64,000 nucleotides of DNA from Planctomycetota bacterium. Lineage in GTDB: Bacteria; Planctomycetota; Phycisphaerae; Phycisphaerales; Phycisphaeraceae. Where the stretch lies: positions 124,001 to 188,000 of the forward strand of contig CP066225.1 of NCBI GenBank assembly GCA_016350165.1. The letters are read 5' to 3'. The position numbers and the translations under genes are program-made. Shown here piece by piece: positions 41,664 to 53,474 of this stretch (positions within the stretch are counted from its first letter, which is position 1; each line of letters begins with the position of its first letter). Below the pieces are notes generated by a model. That model saw only the letters and a program-made list of their open reading frames with translations, ran no database searches and had not been told where the DNA came from.

Positions 41664-43100
41664 ATGGGCAGCGATCTTGAACAGGAACAGTTAGAAGCAA
41701 ATGAGAAGGGGCATAGTGCTCATTTGAAGGATGCGGACTCGAAGCTTGGTTTAGCTGGAGCGTTTAAGCGGCCTATTAAAGTGACGGTGATTGGCGCTGG
41801 CTCATTCTTTACGCATCACTTGATGTGTGACCTACTCGATATCAAGGGGCTTTGTGGTGGTGAGATTGCACTTGTTGATATTGATGAGACACGCTTGGGG
41901 ATGATGTATCAATTGGTTGGTGGTGTTGTGAAAACGAAGGGTATGGAGAACGAATGGAAGGTTGTCAGTTCGACGGATCGTCGAGAGGTGATGGGCGGCA
42001 GCGACTATATTATTTTCTGTGTTGAAGTGGCTGGGGTTGAGTGTGTTGAATGGGATAATGATATTCCGCTGAAGTATGGTGTGGATCAATGTATTGGCGA
42101 TACGATTGGGCCGGGCGGATTGTTCAAGGCGTTGCGAACTGTTCCTGTGTATTTAGATATGCTTCGTGATGCTGAGGAATTGTGTCCGAATGTGACGGTG
42201 CTTAACTATACGAACCCGATGAATATTTTGTGTTTGGCTGGTGGTCGTACAAGTCAGATACCGGCAGTGGGTTTGTGTCACTCTGTTCAAGGGACGAGTC
42301 ACAAGTTGGCAACGGATGCTGGTGTGCCTTATGAAGAACTGGTTTGGGAGTGTGCTGGAATTAATCACTTGGCATGGTTTACGAAGCTTGAGCATAAGGG
42401 TGTTGATTTGTACCCGCTTTTGCTTGAGAAGACTGAGGGTGAGAATGGGGATGTGTATGAGGGCGACCCGGTACGTTATGACATGATGAAGCATTTTGGT
42501 GCTTTTAGTACAGAAAGTAGTGGGCATCTGAGTGAGTACTTGCCTTATTATCGTAAGCGTAAGGATTTGATCGATCGTTATTGCCGAGATGGGTATTTGG
42601 GTGAGAGCCGATTTTATGCATCGAATTGGCCGACGTGGCGTAAGGATGGTGACAAGGAACGCTTGCGTGTTTTGAATGGTGAGTCAGAGCTTGTTAAGGA
42701 GCGTACGTGGGAGTATGCGTCCTGGATTATTGAAGCGATTGAGAAGGATGTGCCTTACCGGATATATGGTAATGTGATGAATCATGATGGGACGGGGAGT
42801 GGTAAGTTGATCAGTAACTTGCCGACGGATGGTTGCGTGGAAGTGGCTTGTATGATTGATAAGAATGGTATTAATCCAACACGCTATGGTAAGTTGCCTG
42901 CACAGATGGCGGCAGTGTGTGCATCGAATATGAGTATGTTTGATCTTGCGGCTACGGCTTGCATAGAGAAAAGTAAGGAAGCTGCGATACATGCGTTATT
43001 ACTTGATCCGCTATGCTCGGCTGTTTGCAGCCCTGCAGAGATCAAGGCGATGACGCTGGAGATGTTTGATGTTGAGAAAGACTATCTGCCTGGCTATTAA
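41664..43100 (+). CDS. Glycoside hydrolase family 4 (alpha-glucosidase/galactosidase-like)
   Basis: NAD- and Mn-dependent glycosidase of 478 aa that cleaves by oxidation-elimination rather than hydrolysis at the anomeric carbon. VTVIGAGSFFTHHL near residue 41 binds NAD. NYTNPMNIL (181-189), GLCHSVQG with metal ligands C205/H206, and AGINHLAWF with H235 are the GH4 motifs. The first 38 residues are a hydrophilic extension not usual for the family. RBS AAAAGGA precedes the ATG. GH4 enzymes often act on phosphorylated or alpha-linked sugars or glucuronides; the true substrate is open. Confidence 0.93.
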   Translation: MGSDLEQEQLEANEKGHSAHLKDADSKLGLAGAFKRPIKVTVIGAGSFFTHHLMCDLLDIKGLCGGEIALVDIDETRLGMMYQLVGGVVKTKGMENEWKVVSSTDRREVMGGSDYIIFCVEVAGVECVEWDNDIPLKYGVDQCIGDTIGPGGLFKALRTVPVYLDMLRDAEELCPNVTVLNYTNPMNILCLAGGRTSQIPAVGLCHSVQGTSHKLATDAGVPYEELVWECAGINHLAWFTKLEHKGVDLYPLLLEKTEGENGDVYEGDPVRYDMMKHFGAFSTESSGHLSEYLPYYRKRKDLIDRYCRDGYLGESRFYASNWPTWRKDGDKERLRVLNGESELVKERTWEYASWIIEAIEKDVPYRIYGNVMNHDGTGSGKLISNLPTDGCVEVACMIDKNGINPTRYGKLPAQMAAVCASNMSMFDLAATACIEKSKEAAIHALLLDPLCSAVCSPAEIKAMTLEMFDVEKDYLPGY

Positions 43101-43126: not shown

Positions 43127-43154
43127 AAGGTCCTCATTATGGGGATCTTTTTTT
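43127..43154 (+). terminator. Terminator of GH4 gene
   Basis: Stem AAGGTCCTC (43127-43135) / GGGGATCTT (43141-43149) with two G-T pairs and a 5-base loop, then a T-run. Confidence 0.8.
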
Positions 43155-45510
43155 ATGCAAGTGTAAGCTGATCAATGAAATGATTCTGAAAAGATGCTTC
43201 GGCGTTGAGTTCGATGACGTTCATATTGTTAGCAATATTGGCCAAATCTTGGAGAAGATCACGATCGAGCGTTGTCATGTATGCGCTAGCAAGCGAGGTG
43301 TTGCCAACAAGTTCAATTTGCTGAGTTGTGAAGTCGGGGAGAAGACCGCTGTCGATCGCGTTTTGCAAATCAATATGCATACCAAAACCACCTGCAAGAT
43401 AGAGTTTTGAGATATCTTTTGGTTGCAGATTAGCTTTTTCAAGAAGCGTGATGATGCCGGCTGCGATGGCGGCTTTGGCTTGTAAAAGCTTGGCGATTTC
43501 AGCTTCGGAAACGAGCAAGTCATGGCCTAAGTGGAGTGTGGCTGAGCATCCGTCTTCTTTGTTGAGTCTATTTGCAAGTTTAGCGTATTGTTCTGTTGTG
43601 TAGTGGCCGTTTTTATCTATGATTTTCGTGTTTTTACCACTTGCGAGCAAGTCGATGTATGCAGAACCACAGAGGCCTATTGGCTGACAGTTGCCGATGA
43701 CATTGAAGTTAATCTTGAATGGATCGAGTTGGAAATTAAGATGGCTTACAGCACCGTCACCTGCGCGCATTCCTGATTTGAGCCCTGCTCCTTCGAAGGC
43801 TGGACCGGCGGCAGTAGCACATGCTAAAAGTTGATTTTTATGTTGAAGAACGATCTCGCCGTTGGTACCGACATCGACGAGGAGAACGGCGTCGGATTCG
43901 TAATGCATACCAGTGGCTAGAGCACCACCAACAATATCTGCTCCGATGTAAGCAGATGCACTTGGTAACAGATGAATCGATGGAGAGGTTTGCGAATCAG
44001 GCCAATCGAGACCAATGTCTGCCCAATTTAGCTTTTTATGACTAAGGAACTGCGGCGTGAAAGGTATCATGCCCATCGTTGAGGGGTCAATACCTGCACA
44101 GAGATGGAGCATTGTTGTGTTACCTGCAATGACCATGCCTGCAATATTCGTGAGTTTAAGATTTGTATTACTGAGTAATTCATCAATAAGCGGCTTGAAT
44201 GTTTTACTAACAAGTGCATTCTGTAGCTGCTTGAGCATGGTTAAATCGGTCATGCAAAGATTGATTCTTGTGAGGACATCATCGCCAAGATGCATCTGAT
44301 TGTTGAATGAAGAAGCTTTGCTGACGACTTTGCCATCGTTTAAATCGATAAGCATCATTGCGACGGTTGTGGTGCCAATATCGACGGCGAGTGCGTAATG
44401 ATTGGTTGCAGTAAAATCAAATATGGGTTGGTGCGCAAATGGGATATTGATGCGGTAATTATTGAGAACTGAAGGCTCAAATGTACTTGTTGAATGTGAT
44501 GGAATGCGGATTGATACATTATCGCAGGTTGAAAAATCGATTTGGTATTCACATGCTTTGAGTGTGATGGGTTCATTCTTAGCAGTAATGCTTTGATCGG
44601 TTGATTTTTTATGAAGTTGGCCTTGCGTGAGTTCGATGAGGCAACCGTCACAAATGGAGCGTTCGCCGCAACGTGTGTTGAGAGGGAAGCCATGCTTGCG
44701 AAGAATGGTGGAGATTTGCTGTGAAACTTCGTCTTGTGATGTGAGTGTTATGTGATGTTCGTCTGTCGGTGTTTGGATGCGTAGCACAGGCAAGCTTTGC
44801 GATTTTTGGAGAATGCTTTCGTCGCTGGTCATGACGGCAGTCTGTCCCGGTTGAAGTACTAAAAAACGTTCGGAATCCCAATGGCCTGAGAGTAGAGATT
44901 CGAGTAAGCCTGAATCACCTGCTTGCTCGTCGTAATTCCAACCAAGCCAATTCGAGCAATTTTGAGTAAATGATTTATCTTGATCTGATACACCGACAGT
45001 AAGATGCACGTAGGTTGCGCGATCGTATGTGCTGAACCAATGTTGTTCCGACTGCATCAGATAATCTGCATTATCTTCGCCATATTTTCTGACGTATTGA
45101 TCGTAGAGTTTTTTGTGTCTTTCAGGACCGGGTGGGAGATGGTGTCGATTCCAGCCAGGGGAGTACCAGTAGGTGCCGGGATGGTCGGCGACATACTGTG
45201 CGTATTTTTCTTTTGAACCAAGCAATAAGGTAATGCAATCGTGTGCACGCGGAATGACGAGTTTGGCTTTTGAAGTGGTGATGCCTTCGATTCCCCGACT
45301 ACAGAGGCCATATCCGAGAACGATAGCATCGATATCAATCGATTGTTCTATGCGAGTAATTGCTTGCTGTAGCGCTACTCTGAGGCGTGGCGGTTCGTTA
45401 TGCAACCCTTGTTCAAGTTTCTCGATATGCATGACCTGCGCATACTTACTTGCGTAATGCTCAATTTCGGTTTCAAGTACCGCACAGGTTATGACAGCGA
45501 TTTTGATCAT
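43153..45510 (-). CDS. Corrinoid reductive activator: DUF1638 + [2Fe-2S] + ASKHA (RACo-type) fusion
   Basis: A 785-aa protein combining parts usually seen separately. Residues 1 to about 230 (VITCAVLETEIEHYA, VLGYGLCSRGI, PRAHDCITLLLGS) match DUF1638, a domain met beside corrinoid methyltransferase genes. Residues about 240-335 form a [2Fe-2S] domain with C281, C287, C290 (C-x5-C-x2-C) and C320. From about 372, YALAVDIGTTTVAMML, GNTTMLHLCAGID, LLVDVGTNGEIVL and YLAGGFGMHIDL give the ASKHA/DUF4445 domain of RACo/RamA. These activators use ATP to reduce inactive Co(II) corrinoid to Co(I). It is divergent from the PocR-type regulator and faces the GH4 gene. Confidence 0.9.
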   Translation of the reverse strand: MIKIAVITCAVLETEIEHYASKYAQVMHIEKLEQGLHNEPPRLRVALQQAITRIEQSIDIDAIVLGYGLCSRGIEGITTSKAKLVIPRAHDCITLLLGSKEKYAQYVADHPGTYWYSPGWNRHHLPPGPERHKKLYDQYVRKYGEDNADYLMQSEQHWFSTYDRATYVHLTVGVSDQDKSFTQNCSNWLGWNYDEQAGDSGLLESLLSGHWDSERFLVLQPGQTAVMTSDESILQKSQSLPVLRIQTPTDEHHITLTSQDEVSQQISTILRKHGFPLNTRCGERSICDGCLIELTQGQLHKKSTDQSITAKNEPITLKACEYQIDFSTCDNVSIRIPSHSTSTFEPSVLNNYRINIPFAHQPIFDFTATNHYALAVDIGTTTVAMMLIDLNDGKVVSKASSFNNQMHLGDDVLTRINLCMTDLTMLKQLQNALVSKTFKPLIDELLSNTNLKLTNIAGMVIAGNTTMLHLCAGIDPSTMGMIPFTPQFLSHKKLNWADIGLDWPDSQTSPSIHLLPSASAYIGADIVGGALATGMHYESDAVLLVDVGTNGEIVLQHKNQLLACATAAGPAFEGAGLKSGMRAGDGAVSHLNFQLDPFKINFNVIGNCQPIGLCGSAYIDLLASGKNTKIIDKNGHYTTEQYAKLANRLNKEDGCSATLHLGHDLLVSEAEIAKLLQAKAAIAAGIITLLEKANLQPKDISKLYLAGGFGMHIDLQNAIDSGLLPDFTTQQIELVGNTSLASAYMTTLDRDLLQDLANIANNMNVIELNAEASFQNHFIDQLTLA

Positions 45511-45632
45511 TTTGAATCCCGAGCAGATTCACACAATTTGTTAATGCGTGTATGTGAACTGACATTTATCAATAAACTCGTCATAATATACAATGAAGTA
45601 AGATGTAACTACATTTTCATTGCGGGGTTTGA

Positions 45633-46820
45633 ATGAATTCTCTCGAACAACTATCACAGCCAAACATATCTGAGCTTGATCGCAGCATATTCCGACGTAT
45701 TGCTCAGAACTATTTATTAAATTGGCCTGTTGGAATTTGTGTTGTTCAACCAGATGGTCAACGGTTGATGGCAAAGAATTGGTGGGCGGGTCGTGATTCT
45801 GTAACACATAGGGATTTATTGGCATTTAATGTCCAAGAAGGCTTGCGATTTGGAGAGCCTACGGTTACGTACTGTCCAGACAAACGTCTCTATTGGGCAG
45901 TGCCGATTATGCAAAATTCCAAGGTTTTAGGGGGAATTGTTGCTGGCACAGAGGAAGAAGCATTATTCCCATCCGGTATGGATCAGCCACCTTTGGATTT
46001 GAGAAAAGCCTGCTGCGAGCTTCGATTGATGATCGAGCGTGAGAATCTGACTAATTCGGCAGTGCTTGAAAAGCATCGAATTGATACTGAACGAGAACGT
46101 GAGAGAGCGGAAGTTTTACATCTACTAAAACTTGAAGATTTGAGTGGCGTGAGACAATTGTATCTGCGTGAGGAGCCGCGATTGCTTTCGACGATTCGTC
46201 AAGGCGACCGAAGCGAATCGAGACTTATAATCAATCGCATTTTAACAATGATACTGCATCACGCTGGTGACCGTTTTGAACTCGTAAAGAGTTTTATGAT
46301 GGAGTTGGTTGCGACTATTTGCCGCACGGCAGTTGAAGCTGGGGCCGATCCCGAAGAGATGCTGGGTAACAATTTCCAGAGTATGACCGCGCTGGCATCG
46401 ATACGATCTATGGAACAATTAGCACCATGGCTTCATGCTGTACTTGAACGCACGATGGATGCGATTGCAGCTCATCCTGATAACACATCGTCGATGATTA
46501 TTACGAGTGCAATTACGTTTATGCAGCAGCATCTACATGAGCCGATTGGGCGAGATGATGTGGCGATGGCGGTGGATCTTTCACCTTCACATTTTTCCCG
46601 TTTGTTCAAACACCATGTCGGGCAAGGGTTCAATCAGACGTTGGTGAGAATGCGCGTCGATCATGCGGCTGAGCTGCTGATTAAAACGAGAATGTCGATC
46701 GGCCAAATTGCTCACGCTTCGGGATTCAAAGAGCAAGGTTATTTTGCAAAATCGTTCCATCGGCTGATGGGCCAATCTCCACGCTCATACAGGCAGCACC
46801 AAGCCAACTGCATGGCATAA
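45633..46820 (+). CDS. AraC family regulator with PocR-type sensor
   Basis: A 395-aa regulator. The N-terminal PocR-like ligand domain (about 18-145) shows in LLNWPVGICVVQPDGQ and PTVTYCPDKRLYWAVPI; such domains are proposed to sense small hydrocarbon or corrinoid-pathway ligands. A charged helix (about 150-180) links to a middle helical region, then the AraC HTH pair (about 290-395): GRDDVAMAVDLSPSHFSRLF and SIGQIAHASGFKEQGYFAKS. It lies between the activator gene and the corrinoid operon and is the likely controller of both. Confidence 0.88.
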   Translation: MNSLEQLSQPNISELDRSIFRRIAQNYLLNWPVGICVVQPDGQRLMAKNWWAGRDSVTHRDLLAFNVQEGLRFGEPTVTYCPDKRLYWAVPIMQNSKVLGGIVAGTEEEALFPSGMDQPPLDLRKACCELRLMIERENLTNSAVLEKHRIDTERERERAEVLHLLKLEDLSGVRQLYLREEPRLLSTIRQGDRSESRLIINRILTMILHHAGDRFELVKSFMMELVATICRTAVEAGADPEEMLGNNFQSMTALASIRSMEQLAPWLHAVLERTMDAIAAHPDNTSSMIITSAITFMQQHLHEPIGRDDVAMAVDLSPSHFSRLFKHHVGQGFNQTLVRMRVDHAAELLIKTRMSIGQIAHASGFKEQGYFAKSFHRLMGQSPRSYRQHQANCMA

Positions 46821-46899
46821 ATTTACCAATTTGATATTTGATTTCGTGTTATATTTGCATATTAACTCATTTATGCTGTTTTGTTTCGATTGATCCGCA

Positions 46900-46959
46900 C
46901 AAAATTACCAATAGTACACCCAACATTACCAAGACAGATTTATCTTTTGTGTTTATGCT
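46900..46959 (+). promoter_or_regulatory. Promoter with AraC-type direct repeats before the corrinoid operon
   Basis: CAAAATTACCAA (46900-46911) and CAACATTACCAA (46921-46932) are direct repeats 21 bases apart, two helical turns. The second overlaps a possible -35 AAGACA (46931-46936), with -10 TATGCT (46954-46959) at a 17-base spacing. A weaker copy TTTACCAA is at 46822-46829. The layout suits an AraC-family activator contacting sigma; binding is inference. Confidence 0.55.
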
Positions 46960-47037
46960 ATTTGCACATAATCAAGGAGAGATAGGCTGTGGTTGTACAT
47001 CGTGCGTCTGTGGCTGATATTTCTCAGGAGTAATGAA

Positions 47038-47670
47038 ATGATGGATCTGAAAGATCTCACCGAAGCAATCAAAACGGGCAATCGCACACAAGCAACGAGT
47101 CTTACGCAAGAAGCGTTGGATGCAGATCTGACACCTCAATCGATCCTAGATGCGATGGTTGTCGGGATGGATGAGATTGGTGACAAATTCAAGCGGAATG
47201 AAGTATTTGTTCCTGAGATGCTTATCGCAGCCCGTGCAATGAACGAGTCCATGGCGATCTTAGAGCCTTCACTTGTAAAGAGTGGGTACAAGCCTCTAGC
47301 GACGGCTGTGATTGGTACAGTGCAAGGTGATTTGCATGATATTGGCAAGAATCTTGTGAGCATGATGTGGAAGGGTTCGGCACTGAACGTGATCGATCTT
47401 GGCACGAATGTTACGCCAGATAAATTTGTTGCTGCGATCAAAGAGCATGATGCGAAGTTGGTTGGGTTATCAGCTTTGCTAACAACAACGATGCCATCAA
47501 TGAAGGCAACTGTCGAAGCGATTAAATCTGAAGAATTAAGTGATGTGAAAATTTTGATTGGTGGCGCGCCAGTCACACAATCATTTGCAGATCAGATTGG
47601 TGCAGATGGGTATTCACCTGACGCAGCGAGCGCGGTTGATTCTGCTCATCAATTGCTTGGTATTCGATAA
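47038..47670 (+). CDS. Corrinoid (B12-binding) methyl-carrier protein
   Basis: Methyl carrier of the MtaC/MtbC/MttC type, 210 aa. The N-terminal helical cap (about 1-85) includes VVGMDEIGDKFKRNEVFVPE. The Rossmann B12 domain has GTVQGDLHDIGKNLV with the cobalt-ligating H100 in D-x-H-x-x-G, then VGLSALLTTTMPSMK and ILIGGAPV. The ATG at 47038 has CAGGAG eight bases upstream; an upstream in-frame TTG (46993) is ignored. First gene of a four-gene operon with methyltransferases and a CobW protein. Confidence 0.95.
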   Translation: MMDLKDLTEAIKTGNRTQATSLTQEALDADLTPQSILDAMVVGMDEIGDKFKRNEVFVPEMLIAARAMNESMAILEPSLVKSGYKPLATAVIGTVQGDLHDIGKNLVSMMWKGSALNVIDLGTNVTPDKFVAAIKEHDAKLVGLSALLTTTMPSMKATVEAIKSEELSDVKILIGGAPVTQSFADQIGADGYSPDAASAVDSAHQLLGIR

Positions 47671-47713
47671 ATAATTAGTTAACCATAATCATTATATATA
47701 AGCGGGTTCTATC

Positions 47714-49111
47714 ATGACTGGCAAAGAAATATTAATGTGCGCGTTAAGAGGTGAGGCTACACCACGCCCGGCATGGTTGCCGTATGTTGGTGTGCATGGT
47801 GGCAAGCTAGTTGACGCACCTGCTGATAAATATTTGCAATCGTCAGATTTAATAGTGAAGGGCTTATTAAGAGCGAATGAACTGTATCGTCCTGACGGTT
47901 TGCCGATTATGTTTGATTTGCAGATGGAAGCTGAAGTTCTTGGTTGCCAATTAAAATGGGCAGAAAAGACGCCACCTGCTGTTGTGACACATCCGATGAG
48001 CCTTATGGAAGGTGACGGCAAAACGTTGGCTGATTTGCCGGAGTTTTGTGTTACTAAAGGTCGGTTCCCAATCGCATTTGAAGCTTTAGATAGAGTCAAG
48101 CAAGAGATTGGTGAAGATGTTGCTTTATATAGTCTATTGACTGGGCCGTTTACGCTTGCGTTGCATTTACTTGGCAACGATATCTTCATGAATATGTACG
48201 ATAATCCACAAAGTGTTTTAGATGTTATGGATTTTTGTGCTGATATTGGATGCCAAGTTGCAAAATCATATATTGAGCACGGTGCTGATGTGGTTGCAGT
48301 GGTCGATCCTATGACAAGCCAAATATCTTCAGAACATTTCGATGAGTTTGTCACACCATATGTCAATCGTATTTTCGATTGCATCGCATCAACCAAAGCA
48401 ATGAGTTCAATGTTTGTATGCGGTGACGCAACACGTAATCTCGAAGTCATGGCTGCTCTTCATTGCAATAACATAGCGATCGATGAACAGATTCCATTGG
48501 ATAAGATTCGTGATCTTGTCTTACCTGCAAACAAGAGCTTTGGCGGTAACTTAAAACTGACCACCGTTTTGCTAATGGGTGATGAAGAGGATGCGAAACT
48601 AAATGCAATCGAATGTATAGACTCAGCAGGCGATCAGAGTTTTGTGCTGGCACCTGGATGCGACCTGCCCTATGACGTAAAGCCTGAAAACTTGAGTGCA
48701 GTTGCTACGATGGTGCATGATGAGTATCAGCGTGATGTCGCTAGAAACACAATCAATTCGAAACAATCTGATAGTTTTGATGATATCGTTTTACCTGATT
48801 ATCAAAATGAAGATGCCGTTATCATAGATGTTGTCACACTGGATTCTGAAGGTTGTGCGCCTTGTCAGTATATGTTCAAAGCCGCTTTGGATGCTCGCAC
48901 TCGACTGGGAGACAAAGTGAAAATCGTTTTAAATGAGCATAAGATTACAACGCGTGAAGGCGTAGGTATGATGGTGAAATTGCAAGTGCCAAATCTACCT
49001 TCGATATGCATTGATGGTCAGTGTAAATTCGCATCGATAACACCCGATACTGCATTAATTGTCGAAGAAATCGTGAACGCAGCACGTAAGAAGCAAGAGG
49101 TTGAGTCATGA
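47714..49111 (+). CDS. URO-D superfamily methyltransferase fused to a thioredoxin-like domain
   Basis: A 465-aa two-domain protein. Residues 1 to about 345 are a uroporphyrinogen-decarboxylase-superfamily barrel like MtaA/MtbA/CmuA (RPAWLPYVGVHGGK, LLTGPFTLALHLLGND, APGCDLPYDVKPENL). In zinc methyltransferases of this group the ligands are H-x-C and a distal C. Here the motif is F234-V-C236 with C316, so the histidine is lost. Residues about 365-465 form a small thioredoxin-like domain with C381-A-P-C384 and the cis-proline-like region VPNLPSICIDG. A redox or metal-delivery role for that domain is inference. It overlaps cobW-like gene by four bases. Confidence 0.87.
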   Translation: MTGKEILMCALRGEATPRPAWLPYVGVHGGKLVDAPADKYLQSSDLIVKGLLRANELYRPDGLPIMFDLQMEAEVLGCQLKWAEKTPPAVVTHPMSLMEGDGKTLADLPEFCVTKGRFPIAFEALDRVKQEIGEDVALYSLLTGPFTLALHLLGNDIFMNMYDNPQSVLDVMDFCADIGCQVAKSYIEHGADVVAVVDPMTSQISSEHFDEFVTPYVNRIFDCIASTKAMSSMFVCGDATRNLEVMAALHCNNIAIDEQIPLDKIRDLVLPANKSFGGNLKLTTVLLMGDEEDAKLNAIECIDSAGDQSFVLAPGCDLPYDVKPENLSAVATMVHDEYQRDVARNTINSKQSDSFDDIVLPDYQNEDAVIIDVVTLDSEGCAPCQYMFKAALDARTRLGDKVKIVLNEHKITTREGVGMMVKLQVPNLPSICIDGQCKFASITPDTALIVEEIVNAARKKQEVES

Positions 49112-50001
49112 TCCCATTAACGCTTGTAACTGGATTCCTTGGCAGCGGCAAAACTACTTTGCTGAAACGTTTTGCTGCGAATGCGAATGGAAAAAAGTTT
49201 GCGTTTTTGGTTAATGAATATGCTCAGTTGGATATTGACGGCCAACTGATGGATGACGCTGCGGATGTGATTGCTATACCGGGAGGATCTATTTTCTGCC
49301 GATGCTTAACGACTACATTTATAGAACAACTTACAACAGTAGCTGAACGAAACAAAGCAGAGCAATTTGACGGTGTAATTATAGAAGCGAGTGGTGTAGC
49401 AAACCCAACTGTTATACGTAAAATGCTTATTGAAACTGAGCTTGATCAACAGTTTGATATTGAGCATATCATTGCAGTCGCTGAACCAAACAGTTTATTG
49501 AAGCTATTGACAACGTTGCCTAATATTCGTGAACAAATTCAAGCTGCGGATATTGTGGTTTTAAATAAAATAGATCTTGCGGGTGATGATGAGATTGAAG
49601 AATCAATGCGCAAGATATTGGAAATACAGCCTAACGCTACAATCTCCAAGTCGGTTAACTGTGATGTTGATATTGAGTTGTTTAACGGTCAATGGAATCT
49701 TGACTTGGACGGTGAATATGCAAAATGTAAAGATCCGCATTATAGCCAATCTGTCATTTCTATTGATAGCAAGCCAACGCGTAGTGATTTGCATGGTTTA
49801 CTTGCACGTTTGACCGGTGATGTTTATCGGGTAAAGGGGTGGGTGAATTGCTTTGAAGGCCCCACATACATAGATATTTCCTCAGGTAAATTATCAATAA
49901 CTCCTGTGAAAACAATGGAACATAAGCCATCGGCATTAGCGGTGATTTATAACAGCGAATCAACAATTGATTTCGAGATGATTAATACAACTGTTGCTTG
50001 A
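49108..50001 (+). CDS. CobW/G3E family GTPase (metallochaperone)
   Basis: P-loop GTPase of 297 aa from the family that delivers zinc, cobalt or nickel. Walker A GFLGSGKTT is at residues 9-17. GGSIFCRCL stands where the family has its metal-binding CxCC, here reduced to CxC. DGVIIEASGVANP and VVLNKIDLAG (NKxD) follow. The C-terminal CobW_C domain is short. Its ATG overlaps the stop of the URO-D/thioredoxin gene, so it is translationally coupled, suggesting delivery of metal to the corrinoid system. Confidence 0.9.
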   Translation: MIPLTLVTGFLGSGKTTLLKRFAANANGKKFAFLVNEYAQLDIDGQLMDDAADVIAIPGGSIFCRCLTTTFIEQLTTVAERNKAEQFDGVIIEASGVANPTVIRKMLIETELDQQFDIEHIIAVAEPNSLLKLLTTLPNIREQIQAADIVVLNKIDLAGDDEIEESMRKILEIQPNATISKSVNCDVDIELFNGQWNLDLDGEYAKCKDPHYSQSVISIDSKPTRSDLHGLLARLTGDVYRVKGWVNCFEGPTYIDISSGKLSITPVKTMEHKPSALAVIYNSESTIDFEMINTTVA

Positions 50002-50041
50002 AGTGAACAACAGGAATTATGTAAGTAAGGAATTGGTAGTA

Positions 50042-51052
50042 ATGAATAATTATGAACGGTATATGGGCATGGTTAAAGGCGAACAGGTCGATTACGTGCC
50101 ACGCATTCCAATTCTAATGCATTACGCTGCGAAGCATATTGGTGCTTCTTATGCAGATTTTGCTGGCGATTACAATACTCTGGTAAAAGCTAACATTGCT
50201 TTGGCTGAAGATTTTGGTGTTAGCCAACTTGATATCATGTCAGACCCTTGGCGTGAGACTGCAGACTATGGTGCTGAAATTGAATATCTTGAAACCACAT
50301 GCCCGCAATGTTTGAAACATCCTCTGGAAGACAGTAAGGATTTGAGTTTGCTCACGCGACCTGAGGTTGGGAAAACAACGCGTTTGACTGCTGCGATCAA
50401 AGCTATTGAAGCTTATAAAGCATATGGTTACAAAGAGTATTCAATTACAGGTTGGGTAGAAGGTCCAGCAGCAGAGGCATCGGATATACGCGGCGTTAGC
50501 AACTTCATGATCGATCTGATTGATGATGAAGAATTCGCATGTGAATTGATGGATTTATGTGTCGATGTTGCTATCGAATTTGCAAAGGCTCAAATTGCAG
50601 CCGGAGCAGATACGATTGGCGTCGGCGATGCAATTGCAAGCCAAATGTCAGCTGATATGTATGAAAGACTTGTATTCCCCCGTGAAAAACGCCTTGTTGA
50701 TGGCATCCATGAAGCAGGCGGATTAGTACGCTTGCATATATGTGGGAATACGAACCATATTCTACCTGTCGCTGCGTCACTAGGTGTTGACATCATCGAC
50801 TGTGATTGGATGGTAGATGTTGTTAAAGTTCGTGAACTGTTCCCTAAGAACACGGTAATTGCTGGCAATCTTGACCCTGTAGAAGGGATTATGGAATCTA
50901 CACCTGAGAAAATCCATCAAAATTTCATCGATCTGTATCACAAAGTTGGAAATCCATATTTTGTAAATGCCGGCTGCGAAGTTCCTATGGATACACCAAA
51001 GGAAAATTTACAAGCTCTCTGTAAGCCTATTCAATACAACAGTTCGATATAG
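50042..51052 (+). CDS. URO-D superfamily corrinoid methyltransferase
   Basis: A 336-aa barrel protein of the MtaA/MtbA/CmuA group. The full zinc set is present: H232-I-C234 in RLHICGNTN and C312 in NAGCEVPMDTPKEN; TVIAGNLDPVEGIM is another landmark. It would move a methyl group between the corrinoid protein and a thiol or other acceptor, or attack the methyl donor. The start at 50042 is chosen for AAGGAA (50027-50032), over an upstream TTG at 49994. Last gene of the operon, followed by a terminator. Confidence 0.92.
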   Translation: MNNYERYMGMVKGEQVDYVPRIPILMHYAAKHIGASYADFAGDYNTLVKANIALAEDFGVSQLDIMSDPWRETADYGAEIEYLETTCPQCLKHPLEDSKDLSLLTRPEVGKTTRLTAAIKAIEAYKAYGYKEYSITGWVEGPAAEASDIRGVSNFMIDLIDDEEFACELMDLCVDVAIEFAKAQIAAGADTIGVGDAIASQMSADMYERLVFPREKRLVDGIHEAGGLVRLHICGNTNHILPVAASLGVDIIDCDWMVDVVKVRELFPKNTVIAGNLDPVEGIMESTPEKIHQNFIDLYHKVGNPYFVNAGCEVPMDTPKENLQALCKPIQYNSSI

Positions 51053-51083: not shown

Positions 51084-51120
51084 ACTCACAAGTCACTAAT
51101 GATGGCTTGTGAGTTATTTT
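51084..51120 (+). terminator. Terminator of the corrinoid operon
   Basis: Stem ACTCACAAG (51084-51092) / CTTGTGAGT (51106-51114), then TATTTTG. Confidence 0.8.
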
Positions 51121-51281
51121 GTGGAATAATCTAAAATGCCAACATATCGCAAATTCAAGAACAGTTAAGCGGCATAATACAAAACCTAAATACTATCTGA
51201 TATGATTAATGTGCGATAATGAAACTAAAAATACGTGCTAAATTAATCCCTTTTCATACTCAGTGGGATATGGAGCGTGTA

Positions 51282-53474
51282 ATGATACGGAAATATGCCT
51301 CTTTTTTGGTAGCTGTAATATGCTCATGCTTGCTGTGCTTGCATGCCTCAGCGATTGAGCTGCCTGCGGTCTTTACAGATCATGCGGTTTTTCAACACGG
51401 CACACCTTTCATTGTTTGGGGCTGGGCAAAGCCAAATGAAAAAATTACTGTTACATTTCAAGATCAGAATATTTCCACAACCACTGCTGCTACTGGTAAG
51501 TGGGAAATAAGCTTAAAGCCACTACAACCATCCTTTACCCCATCGCAGATGACAGTTAAAGGTGATACAGAAATAATTGTTGTAGATGACATTCTTATTG
51601 GTGAAGTATGGCTATGCTCTGGTCAATCAAATATGTATTGGACAGTTGAGAATACTGATCATGCTGAAGAAGTGATTGCTAATGCATCAAACAATACTCA
51701 TATTCGAATGATCACTTCTCCTCTTCGACTTTCTGCAGAACCTTTGGATCGCATAAGCACTTCATGGCAAGTTCCTACATCTGATACGATCGTCAAATGG
51801 TCAGCGGTTGCCTATCACTTTGGTGTCAAGTTACAAGAAGAACTTAATATGCCGATTGGGTTGCTTTCTGTATCGTGGGGAGGCAGCAAAATTGAACCAT
51901 GGATTTCTATGGAGGGATTCGGATCAGTTCCTCAAACTAAAACAATTTATGATTCACTTGTTCTGAAGGACCCAACTTCTGAATCGTATCAAGAACACAC
52001 TGATGCGTATTTATTAAAAGTAGATCAATGGCTGGCGGAATCCAAGGAAGCTGTTGCTAACTCTAAAAGTATTGAAGCACCACCTGTATTTCCAAGTAAT
52101 ATTCAGCCTTATAAAAATATGCAAGATCCATCCATGATGTATCGTGGAATGATCCATGCTTTCGTCCCATATTCGATTCGTGGTTGTATTTGGTACCAAG
52201 GTGAATCAAACCGATTTGATGGTGCAAATCGTACTGACGAGTTGAGGCAGCTATATTTATTTAAAACTCAGGCTCTTTTAAATGGATGGCGAAAAGCATG
52301 GAATAATCCTGATTTGCCTTACTACTACGTGCAGATTGCCCCATACGAGTATGGCAAGGACGCAAAAGACATTTTGCCACAGTTCTGGGAAGTACAATCT
52401 GACATTGAAAAGAAAATTCCCAATACAGGCATGATCGTGATTAATGACATTGGTAATGCCAAGGACATCCACCCCAAAAATAAACTTGATGTCGGTCAAC
52501 GTCTCGCGAATTTAGCACTACATGAAACGTATCAACGCAAAGAAATTCTTGCACGCGGCCCTCAAGTTAACAGTATGAGTATTAGTGGTAACTATCTTTT
52601 CCTTAAGTTTAGCCATGTTGGTGATGGTCTAGCAACACGTGACGGAAAAGCTCCTGATTGCTTTGAAATCATTGGTGATTCATCATGGCAAAATGCTGAA
52701 GCTGAAATTGTTTCGCATGATACTATTAAACTTTGGTCAGATGAAGTTGAGAAACCTGTAGCCATCCGATATGCATGGAACAAATTATCTTCGCCCAACC
52801 TGATAAACTCAGCTAACTTACCAACCGGTGCGTTCAAATTAGGCAGTCCACCCGACTTAAGTACCATGGCATTAAACGTGCCTGAGGCAGAAAAATACAC
52901 GACTGTTTACGAAATTGATTTAAATAAGCTCGGCAATGAAATTCAGTACGAAACTGATATTTCTGATCTTGTAAAATCATATGATCGCATTGCTTATTTC
53001 CTTGAATTGGAAAGTGAAAAAGGCAATGAGTGGATTTTTGTATCTTTAGATGCATTCACACAGGATGCAACCTTGATCGGAATACCTTCCGTTGAAAGCG
53101 GCGCCATTTTCCAACAATCCGTAAGCAATATCAATGTATACACCAATAAATCCGGCATCAAAGTTGGTAAAGGCTTCATTGGCAATATTGAATTTTGGCC
53201 TAATAATTACGGGCAATCTAATGAAAAAAATATCACCGGTGCCTCTTCAACTAAATATGATTTCGGCGATCAAATGAGCCCCAGCGGTACGTATGGAAGC
53301 ATGCAAATCCATCTAACAAATGAGGCAACAACGCTATTTGCCATCAATGCATGGAAACGAGGCAAGACTGTTGACATAGGTATTGGCAACAGTCCCGGTG
53401 AGCATTCAGACTGGACATTTTCAAATAATGGCGAGCAATACAAAGCGAAACGCCTAACTGTTTTAGTAAAATAA
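51282..53474 (+). CDS. Sialate O-acetylesterase-like SGNH enzyme
   Basis: Secreted carbohydrate esterase of about 730 aa. The ATG at 51282 follows GGAG and gives a signal peptide (YASFLVAVICSCLLCLHASA). An N-terminal beta-domain (AVFQHGTPFIVWGWAKPNE) leads to the SGNH core: WLCSGQSNMYW with the nucleophile serine, LLSVSWGGSKIEPW, and CIWYQGESNRFDG. DIHPKNKLDVGQRLA supplies the D-x-x-H. The last 180 residues are an extra beta-rich region of unknown role. An upstream in-frame ATG (51219) would add 21 residues. Removes acetyl groups from sugars, extracellular or periplasmic. Confidence 0.9.
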   Translation: MIRKYASFLVAVICSCLLCLHASAIELPAVFTDHAVFQHGTPFIVWGWAKPNEKITVTFQDQNISTTTAATGKWEISLKPLQPSFTPSQMTVKGDTEIIVVDDILIGEVWLCSGQSNMYWTVENTDHAEEVIANASNNTHIRMITSPLRLSAEPLDRISTSWQVPTSDTIVKWSAVAYHFGVKLQEELNMPIGLLSVSWGGSKIEPWISMEGFGSVPQTKTIYDSLVLKDPTSESYQEHTDAYLLKVDQWLAESKEAVANSKSIEAPPVFPSNIQPYKNMQDPSMMYRGMIHAFVPYSIRGCIWYQGESNRFDGANRTDELRQLYLFKTQALLNGWRKAWNNPDLPYYYVQIAPYEYGKDAKDILPQFWEVQSDIEKKIPNTGMIVINDIGNAKDIHPKNKLDVGQRLANLALHETYQRKEILARGPQVNSMSISGNYLFLKFSHVGDGLATRDGKAPDCFEIIGDSSWQNAEAEIVSHDTIKLWSDEVEKPVAIRYAWNKLSSPNLINSANLPTGAFKLGSPPDLSTMALNVPEAEKYTTVYEIDLNKLGNEIQYETDISDLVKSYDRIAYFLELESEKGNEWIFVSLDAFTQDATLIGIPSVESGAIFQQSVSNINVYTNKSGIKVGKGFIGNIEFWPNNYGQSNEKNITGASSTKYDFGDQMSPSGTYGSMQIHLTNEATTLFAINAWKRGKTVDIGIGNSPGEHSDWTFSNNGEQYKAKRLTVLVK

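Follow-up and report, generated by a model that had tools for sequence, protein, structure and literature searches.

We analyzed a 64,000-nucleotide stretch of the genome of a planctomycete of the family Phycisphaeraceae (the window; positions 124001-188000 of contig C1 of genome G000, with further sampled genomes labelled G and loci labelled L), which carries a candidate corrinoid-dependent methyl-transfer cluster at window positions 43153-51052. The genome is a single contig of 5.23 Mb and is 95.2% complete. Open reading frame (ORF) calls together with Pfam and NCBIfam profiles located six genes: a corrinoid reductive activase on the minus strand, followed on the plus strand by a regulator, a corrinoid carrier, a first URO-D protein fused to a CxxC thioredoxin-like domain (URO-D-Trx), a CobW-type GTPase and a second URO-D protein (URO-D2). 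The original prediction had proposed a compact corrinoid-dependent methyl-transfer gene set within 8 kb, and the profiles confirmed the families of all six genes. Every gene it had listed was present, but it had named neither the DUF1638 domain of the activase nor the CxxC thioredoxin-like domain, and the PocR domain it had named scored below cut-off. The nearest named relatives by locus were planctomycete records of the Phycisphaeraceae kind, with 74-75% identity over URO-D-Trx.

Activase, carrier, regulator and CobW

The carrier, DUF1638 domain and activase are referred to here as the chassis. The predicted reductive activator was borne out by a 785-residue protein (43153-45510, minus strand) with matches far above cut-off to RACo_C_ter (PF14574, 3.7e-74) and Raco_middle (PF17651, 2.7e-49), as expected of a RamA/RACo-type activase; its matches to the NCBIfam AcsV and RamA models were below cut-off. 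The N-terminus is a DUF1638 domain (PF07796, 9.3e-38), and is followed by a ferredoxin-like cysteine cluster (read by eye), the RACo middle domain and an ASKHA domain. The B12 carrier protein (46993-47670, plus strand; likelier start near 47038) was likewise found as predicted. It is of the MtbC/MtgC type, with the cap and Rossmann B12-binding domains of a corrinoid methyltransferase system (PF02607, 2.5e-19; PF02310, 2.5e-26) and the motif GDLHDIG, and scored 176.8 bits against the NCBIfam pyl_corrinoid model, below the cut-off of 215.3. In a carrier tree it fell in a group of 8 rows (support 89/91) together with homocysteine-type and pterin-type carriers.

The AraC-type regulator assigned by Pfam (45633-46820, plus strand) had been called a PocR-sensor protein. 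This is merely hinted at, as PF10114 scored 11.8 bits against a gathering cut-off of 23.9. The N-terminal half of the regulator could be aligned, at 24% identity, to the regulator beside URO-D-Trx in locus L041, which has a clear PocR domain above the PF10114 cut-off.

The predicted CobW gene (49108-50001, plus strand; PF02492, 4.7e-37) overlaps the end of the URO-D-Trx gene by 4 bases. We read 23 URO-D-Trx loci including the window; the contig of L039 ends before the CobW slot, and L058, which ends inside the gene, was left out. CobW adjoined URO-D-Trx in 22/22 testable loci, window included, with one ORF with a weak radical-SAM match lying between the two in L194. According to the available text of PMC2770081, COG0523 proteins occur beside Zn-dependent mtaA/mtaB, and the family motif is CXCC. 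The window CobW has GSIFCRC in its place, and GS[IVL][FY]CxC was found in 22/22 aligned rows with the GTPase domain kept. By sequence, the protein is a COG0523 relative with an altered metal motif.

The two URO-D proteins

URO-D-Trx (47714-49111, plus strand) is a protein of 465 residues with an MtaA-like URO-D domain (residues 4-336; 3.2e-55) and an extra C-terminal domain at approximately residues 369-464. The URO-D domain has F234, C236 and C316 at the zinc positions, and this Phe-Cys-Cys site, in which the zinc histidine is lost, was seen in 22/22 aligned rows. Its best PDB sequence match was MtaA (4.7e-25), as was the best structural match of its AlphaFold model (mean predicted local distance difference test, pLDDT, 91.8); the structure matches listed all fell on the URO-D domain. 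In the C-terminal domain, C381 and C384 were invariant in 21 rows. We tentatively assign this domain a thioredoxin-like fold from its CxxC motif, a weak NCBIfam match (21.6 against 105 bits) and predicted secondary structure, whose elements follow one another as in a small thioredoxin. The possibility that this domain contains selenocysteine was considered and rejected: the internal TGA of the single flagged orthologue is a stop codon, lying two codons before the match ends. A further C-terminal stretch was present in most of the more distant orthologues, and in those of approximately 541-548 residues (L040-L044, L047-L050) this second stretch is of approximately 80 residues and of unassigned kind.

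URO-D2 (49994-51052, plus strand; likelier start 50042; URO-D 9.1e-57) is also MtaA-like, with MtaA as both its best PDB sequence match (1.9e-18) and the best structural match of its AlphaFold model (mean pLDDT 92.0). Its zinc site is the His-Cys-Cys of MtaA. The same site was found in 11 close orthologues and, among more distant relatives, in 30 rows, a number that counts some genes twice.

Neither protein is a true HemE, as the alternative to the predicted methyltransferases would have it. Against the hemE equivalog, URO-D-Trx and URO-D2 scored 72.6 and 80.3 bits (cut-off 302.95), their zinc sites are not HemE-like, and in the URO-D tree neither grouped with E. coli HemE, a single row on a long branch. 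Scores against the MtaA/CmuA model TIGR01463 were 157.8 and 167.3 bits, also below cut-off (235.4), with MtaA still the nearest solved relative. The tree held 59 of 80 rows, as duplicates and many URO-D2 relatives were dropped, and several references stood on long branches. URO-D-Trx formed one clade (100/100), separate both from the relatives of URO-D2 and from a group of MtaA and three Mlp-like proteins encoded in a single Acetoanaerobium cluster. These three joined MtaA (93/81) and neither window protein, on long branches and with the Mlp label given by gene content only. The URO-D2 group was not one clade, partly because the array member L052:368-1420 was wrongly placed in it. On these comparisons, URO-D-Trx and URO-D2 are not equivalent. 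PF01208 matched G000 in three places only, none HemE-like by zinc site, so that this single contig, 95% complete, yielded no true HemE; the third match lies approximately 31.5 kb beyond URO-D2 and is 56% identical to a member of the URO-D array of genome G143 described below.

Full-length matches to URO-D-Trx (E <= 2.7e-125) were found in 18/248 sampled genomes of the class and matches at 1e-60 in 15/392 of the phylum, G000 being included in both, and the protein also occurred in candidate bacterium SZUA-567, a Clostridiales metagenome-assembled genome and a circular contig labelled Subdoligranulum. The distribution is patchy, with G243, of the same genus as G000, lacking URO-D-Trx. The grouping of genes recurs in relatives and is therefore not chance; its absence from all of them would have spoken against the predicted gene set. 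Among the 23 URO-D-Trx loci, a carrier was close by in 8, DUF1638 with RACo in 6 and another URO-D gene in the stretch in 7. URO-D2 orthologues were enriched in genomes with URO-D-Trx (5/18, against 7/230 without), but they also occur without it.

Module exchange in related clusters

In G143 and G205, one carrier/URO-D-Trx/CobW/activase set lies within an array of URO-D genes, most of which are accompanied by AraC and PhyH genes. The array of G143 (Planctomycetes bacterium syqfu; L052, L122) spans approximately 36 kb and holds six different URO-Ds and a URO-D2 orthologue, most adjoining an AraC regulator and a PhyH-type dioxygenase. The zinc positions of the six read H-D-H, D-D-H, H-C-N, H-C-H, D-D-H and H-D-H, letters that depend on the alignment in distant members, and the seventh, the URO-D2 orthologue, has H-C-C. 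The gene after CobW also varies, being URO-D2 in the window and a URO-D of another kind in G193. A 369-residue "gene" in this position in L036 proved to be a wrong-frame ORF, the true frame encoding a URO-D.

We compared these with nine loci of 12.9-20 kb (L226, L228-L235), picked mostly for a DUF1638 or carrier like that of the window; a tenth (L152) was only 3.3 kb. Genome G039, from the family of the window's bacterium and without URO-D-Trx, has RACo and DUF1638 together with a carrier that shares 61% identity with the window's. The next genes are two URO-Ds, which match two members of the G143 array at 53% and 56% identity, and then a homocysteine S-methyltransferase. The same chassis occurs with MtaB, a URO-D and a homocysteine S-methyltransferase in G055 (L228:7818-14687), a set whose content suggests methanol methyl groups feeding methionine, and with URO-Ds and a homocysteine S-methyltransferase in G097. 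In G016 and G041, which belong to one genus, it stands with a PF00809-type protein (by MetH similarity in both, and by Pfam in G041), and the G041 locus also carries an MTHFR gene. Across the nine loci, the recognised acceptor was a homocysteine S-methyltransferase in three and a pterin-binding protein in two, with none recognised in four. One chassis would thus serve three acceptor modules, the third being the URO-D-thioredoxin/CobW pair.

Related gene sets were seen outside the planctomycetes. In L194 (OY725850, labelled Subdoligranulum variabile), a small circular contig, URO-D-Trx and CobW occur together with another URO-D, genes of an ABC importer and one gene resembling glycoside hydrolases. 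A fragment of a carrier may cross the start of the record, and none was found at the other end. A carrier and a URO-D directly follow a sugar ABC importer and a DUF4091 gene on a Peptoclostridium acidaminophilum plasmid (L196:1101-9403). In Acetoanaerobium noterae (L198:1364-7026), three URO-Ds lie with a carrier and an activase, which is the gene content of a type 1 mlp cluster.

Proposed roles, alternatives and flanking features

Bacterial corrinoid demethylases are usually described as a donor enzyme, a carrier and a folate acceptor. Searches of G000 matched PF02607 to the window carrier, MetH and one weak match. PF00809 was found only in MetH and in a 332-residue frame presumed to be FolP, PF02574 (homocysteine S-methyltransferase) only in MetH, and MtrH in 0/20 genomes, G000 included; G000 therefore shows neither a dedicated folate acceptor nor a second homocysteine methyltransferase. 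MttB (PF06253) had no match in G000 and was present in 5/18 genomes with URO-D-Trx. MtaB had no match in the window, the whole genome not having been searched for it. The earlier statement that no donor methyltransferase is visible thus extends to the whole genome for MttB and MtrH, and stands for MtaB within the window. A need for a replacement methionine synthase was rejected, as G000 has a full-length MetH (there was no match to MetE), and so was selenium salvage, since SelD scored 44.9 bits in G000 against a cut-off of 125. SelD was above cut-off in 6/26 genomes overall and in 5/18 with URO-D-Trx.

We tentatively favour, at somewhat less than even probability, a modular AraC-regulated corrinoid methyltransferase system in which URO-D-Trx would be a thiol-directed acceptor enzyme and URO-D2 the donor. 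The sequences directly support the gene content and homology, the conservation and adjacency, the change at the metal site and the exchange of modules between related clusters; every biochemical role, the donor and acceptor assignment, the substrate and homocysteine as acceptor are inferred. The URO-D-Trx/CobW pair occupies the place of the thiol or pterin acceptor of related clusters, and is therefore read as the acceptor module, with URO-D2 as the donor. The original prediction had suggested that one of the two URO-D proteins may take the donor role; the two are unlike, and the swaps suggest that the plain URO-Ds are donors and URO-D-Trx an acceptor. The Co(I) carrier would take a methyl group from a methylated compound through URO-D2, with its His-Cys-Cys site, and the methyl-Co(III) carrier would pass it to a thiol through URO-D-Trx, which would fill the acceptor slot held in sister clusters by the homocysteine S-methyltransferase or pterin-binding protein. 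The fused CxxC domain may present the thiol or keep it reduced, CobW may deliver a metal, probably zinc, to the URO-D enzymes, and the DUF1638-RACo protein would re-reduce the Co(II) carrier at the expense of ATP. The carrier, DUF1638 and activase would then be a hub with exchangeable donors and acceptors. A thiol is the most likely methyl acceptor; homocysteine is a guess from the swap.

Several observations weigh against this assignment. The invariant phenylalanine in place of the zinc histidine is unexplained in a thiol-activating site. A donor is not always at hand, since in some loci, L041 and L056 among them, URO-D-Trx was found without another URO-D nearby, and 4/9 comparison loci have no recognised acceptor. 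The carriers linked to URO-D-Trx are not one clade in the carrier tree. DUF1638 was present in 17/18 genomes with URO-D-Trx against 78/230 without, a comparison that takes no account of common descent or of the fact that DUF1638 is also used with split methionine synthases. G000 also has a full-length MetH, so a second methionine route is not needed. A more specific mechanism, which we regard as improbable, is that URO-D-Trx is a methylcobamide:thiol methyltransferase with its own acceptor: a CxxC cysteine would replace the lost histidine at the two-cysteine metal site, become methylated and hand the methyl group on. A tethered protein thiol would then do the job of free coenzyme M in methanogens, with the metal loaded by a dedicated CobW. 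To our knowledge, coenzyme M is not expected in the window's bacterium.

The roles might instead be exchanged: URO-D-Trx would be the donor demethylase, with a Phe-Cys-Cys site and a CxxC domain suited to an unusual substrate, and the acceptor would be either unrecognised or URO-D2. L041 and L056, with URO-D-Trx, a carrier, CobW and no other recognised URO-D nearby, fit this arrangement; several genomes with URO-D-Trx hold PF02574 and PF00809 proteins outside full-length MetH as possible acceptors, and URO-D2 keeps the complete His-Cys-Cys of MtaA, a thiol methylator. However, G000 shows no second homocysteine or folate acceptor, and sister clusters have known acceptor types in the place of URO-D-Trx. 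A single URO-D-Trx amid differing URO-Ds in G143, and a different gene after CobW in G193, make the constant partner look like the hub side, and we consider the exchanged roles unlikely.

Two further explanations turn on the substrate, for which Kountz and Balskus associate carboxylate substitutions in the zinc site with O-methyl transfer and His-Cys-Cys with S- or Se-methyl transfer (PMC10418091). A divergent mlp-type cluster for methyl-sulfur or methyl-selenium salvage, as these authors propose for type 1 MGCs, would share the common core, in which at least two MtaA-like proteins accompany a single carrier and a single activase and the cluster encodes no folate methyltransferase, and the His-Cys-Cys site of URO-D2 would suit it. 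In type 1 clusters this site is invariable except in several Mlps1, and machinery for selenium use, which is not strictly defining, is found in 87% of the genomes that carry such a cluster (PMC10418091). The site is present in URO-D2 but not in URO-D-Trx, whose zinc histidine is absent in 22/22 rows, and SelD does not exceed its cut-off in G000. The Acetoanaerobium Mlp-like proteins join MtaA, not either window protein, and the chassis-linked URO-Ds of relatives include carboxylate sites, so that we find an mlp-type cluster improbable. Demethylation of O-methylated sugars released from glycans, to which we assign a similarly low probability, would agree with the GH4 and SASA neighbours of the window cluster described below, with the sugar importer preceding the Peptoclostridium carrier and URO-D, and with the L194 contig, which shares a URO-D, an ABC importer and a glycoside-hydrolase-like gene with URO-D-Trx. 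Rhamnosidase, GH95, 3-keto-disaccharide hydrolase, Gfo/Idh and other glycosidase-like or sulfatase genes also lay near URO-D2 relatives in 4/9 loci, a set that includes the 43% relative L130 and leaves out the window, L122 and L123 (array genomes), L125 (a near-copy of L124) and L131. Yet no family recurred strongly: the commonest, Gfo/Idh, was seen in only 3/70 neighbouring ORFs and was not among the best 25 of 132 families in 88 control ORFs (of 94) that were scanned. The GH4 and SASA genes are not conserved with the cluster, and the His-Cys-Cys of URO-D2 is not of the carboxylate kind.

Clusters of URO-D, corrinoid carrier and activase are of a known kind, and the closest known systems to the proposed thiol-directed URO-D-Trx system are the mlp clusters of Kountz and Balskus and MtgBCDE of Ruegeria. 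Like the mlp clusters, the window set is patchily distributed, combines several MtaA-like URO-Ds with one carrier and one activase, and includes no folate methyltransferase. Unlike them, it has a CxxC-fused URO-D without the zinc histidine, no SelD above cut-off in the genome, URO-Ds that do not group with the Mlp-like rows, and CobW and DUF1638, neither of which is a word in the main text of PMC10418091. The available text of PMC12478193 describes one carrier serving glycine betaine demethylation and methionine synthesis in Ruegeria, and that of PMC5764234 genetic evidence tying DUF1638 and RamA-like proteins to a split methionine synthase. As far as these texts go, the MtgBCDE and split methionine synthase systems of Ruegeria and Phaeobacter share with the window and its relatives one carrier, DUF1638, a RamA-like activase and exchangeable donors and acceptors, with homocysteine methyltransferase among the acceptors of the window's relatives. 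The MtgBCDE donor is of the MttB type (PF06253) and its folate partner of the PF00809 type, whereas G000 has neither as a separate protein, the presumed FolP aside.

The MtaABC/RamM systems of Methanosarcina with COG0523 subfamily 13, in the available text of PMC2770081, likewise place an MtaA-like URO-D, a carrier, an activase and a CobW-type protein side by side, but the window lacks MtaB, its CobW has GS[IVL][FY]CxC instead of CXCC, and its URO-D carries the thioredoxin-like fusion. In the chloromethane systems CmuA/CmuB and CdmBCA and the UroD-type O-demethylases MtvB, OdmB, VdmB and MtoB, as covered by the available text of PMC13222342, a donor methyltransferase of the URO-D superfamily also feeds a corrinoid. 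CmuA (reference from pCMU01) joins URO-D and corrinoid domains in one chain and has an MtrH-like partner; the window carrier is a separate gene, and G000 has no MtrH match and no separate PF00809 methyltransferase. Neither the URO-D-thioredoxin/CobW pair nor the exchange of acceptors was found described in the open-licence full texts searched. If the pair is a folate-independent thiol acceptor, it would bring a methanogen-like step to planctomycetes and some Clostridia records, and would suggest roles that can be tested for both DUF1638 and the CobW subfamily whose motif is altered.

The cluster is flanked by GH4 alpha-galactosidase-like and SASA-type esterase genes (41664-43100 and 51219-53474; Pfam). 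None of the 25 other loci scanned contained a match to either gene, and neither seems to belong to the cluster. A cobalamin riboswitch was sought and rejected, with no Rfam match at gathering score between 36000 and 60000. The divergent intergenic region between activase and regulator (45511-45632) holds a promoter-like match (10/12) towards the regulator; such matches were fewer in the stretch than in shuffled sequence (10 against a mean of 20.5) and give no evidence of function. Terminator-like sites numbered 9 against a shuffled mean of 6.9, which is weak evidence and not commoner than in the shuffles. One terminator-like hairpin of 12 pairs (51084-51114, plus strand) lies 3' of URO-D2 and may mark the end of an operon.

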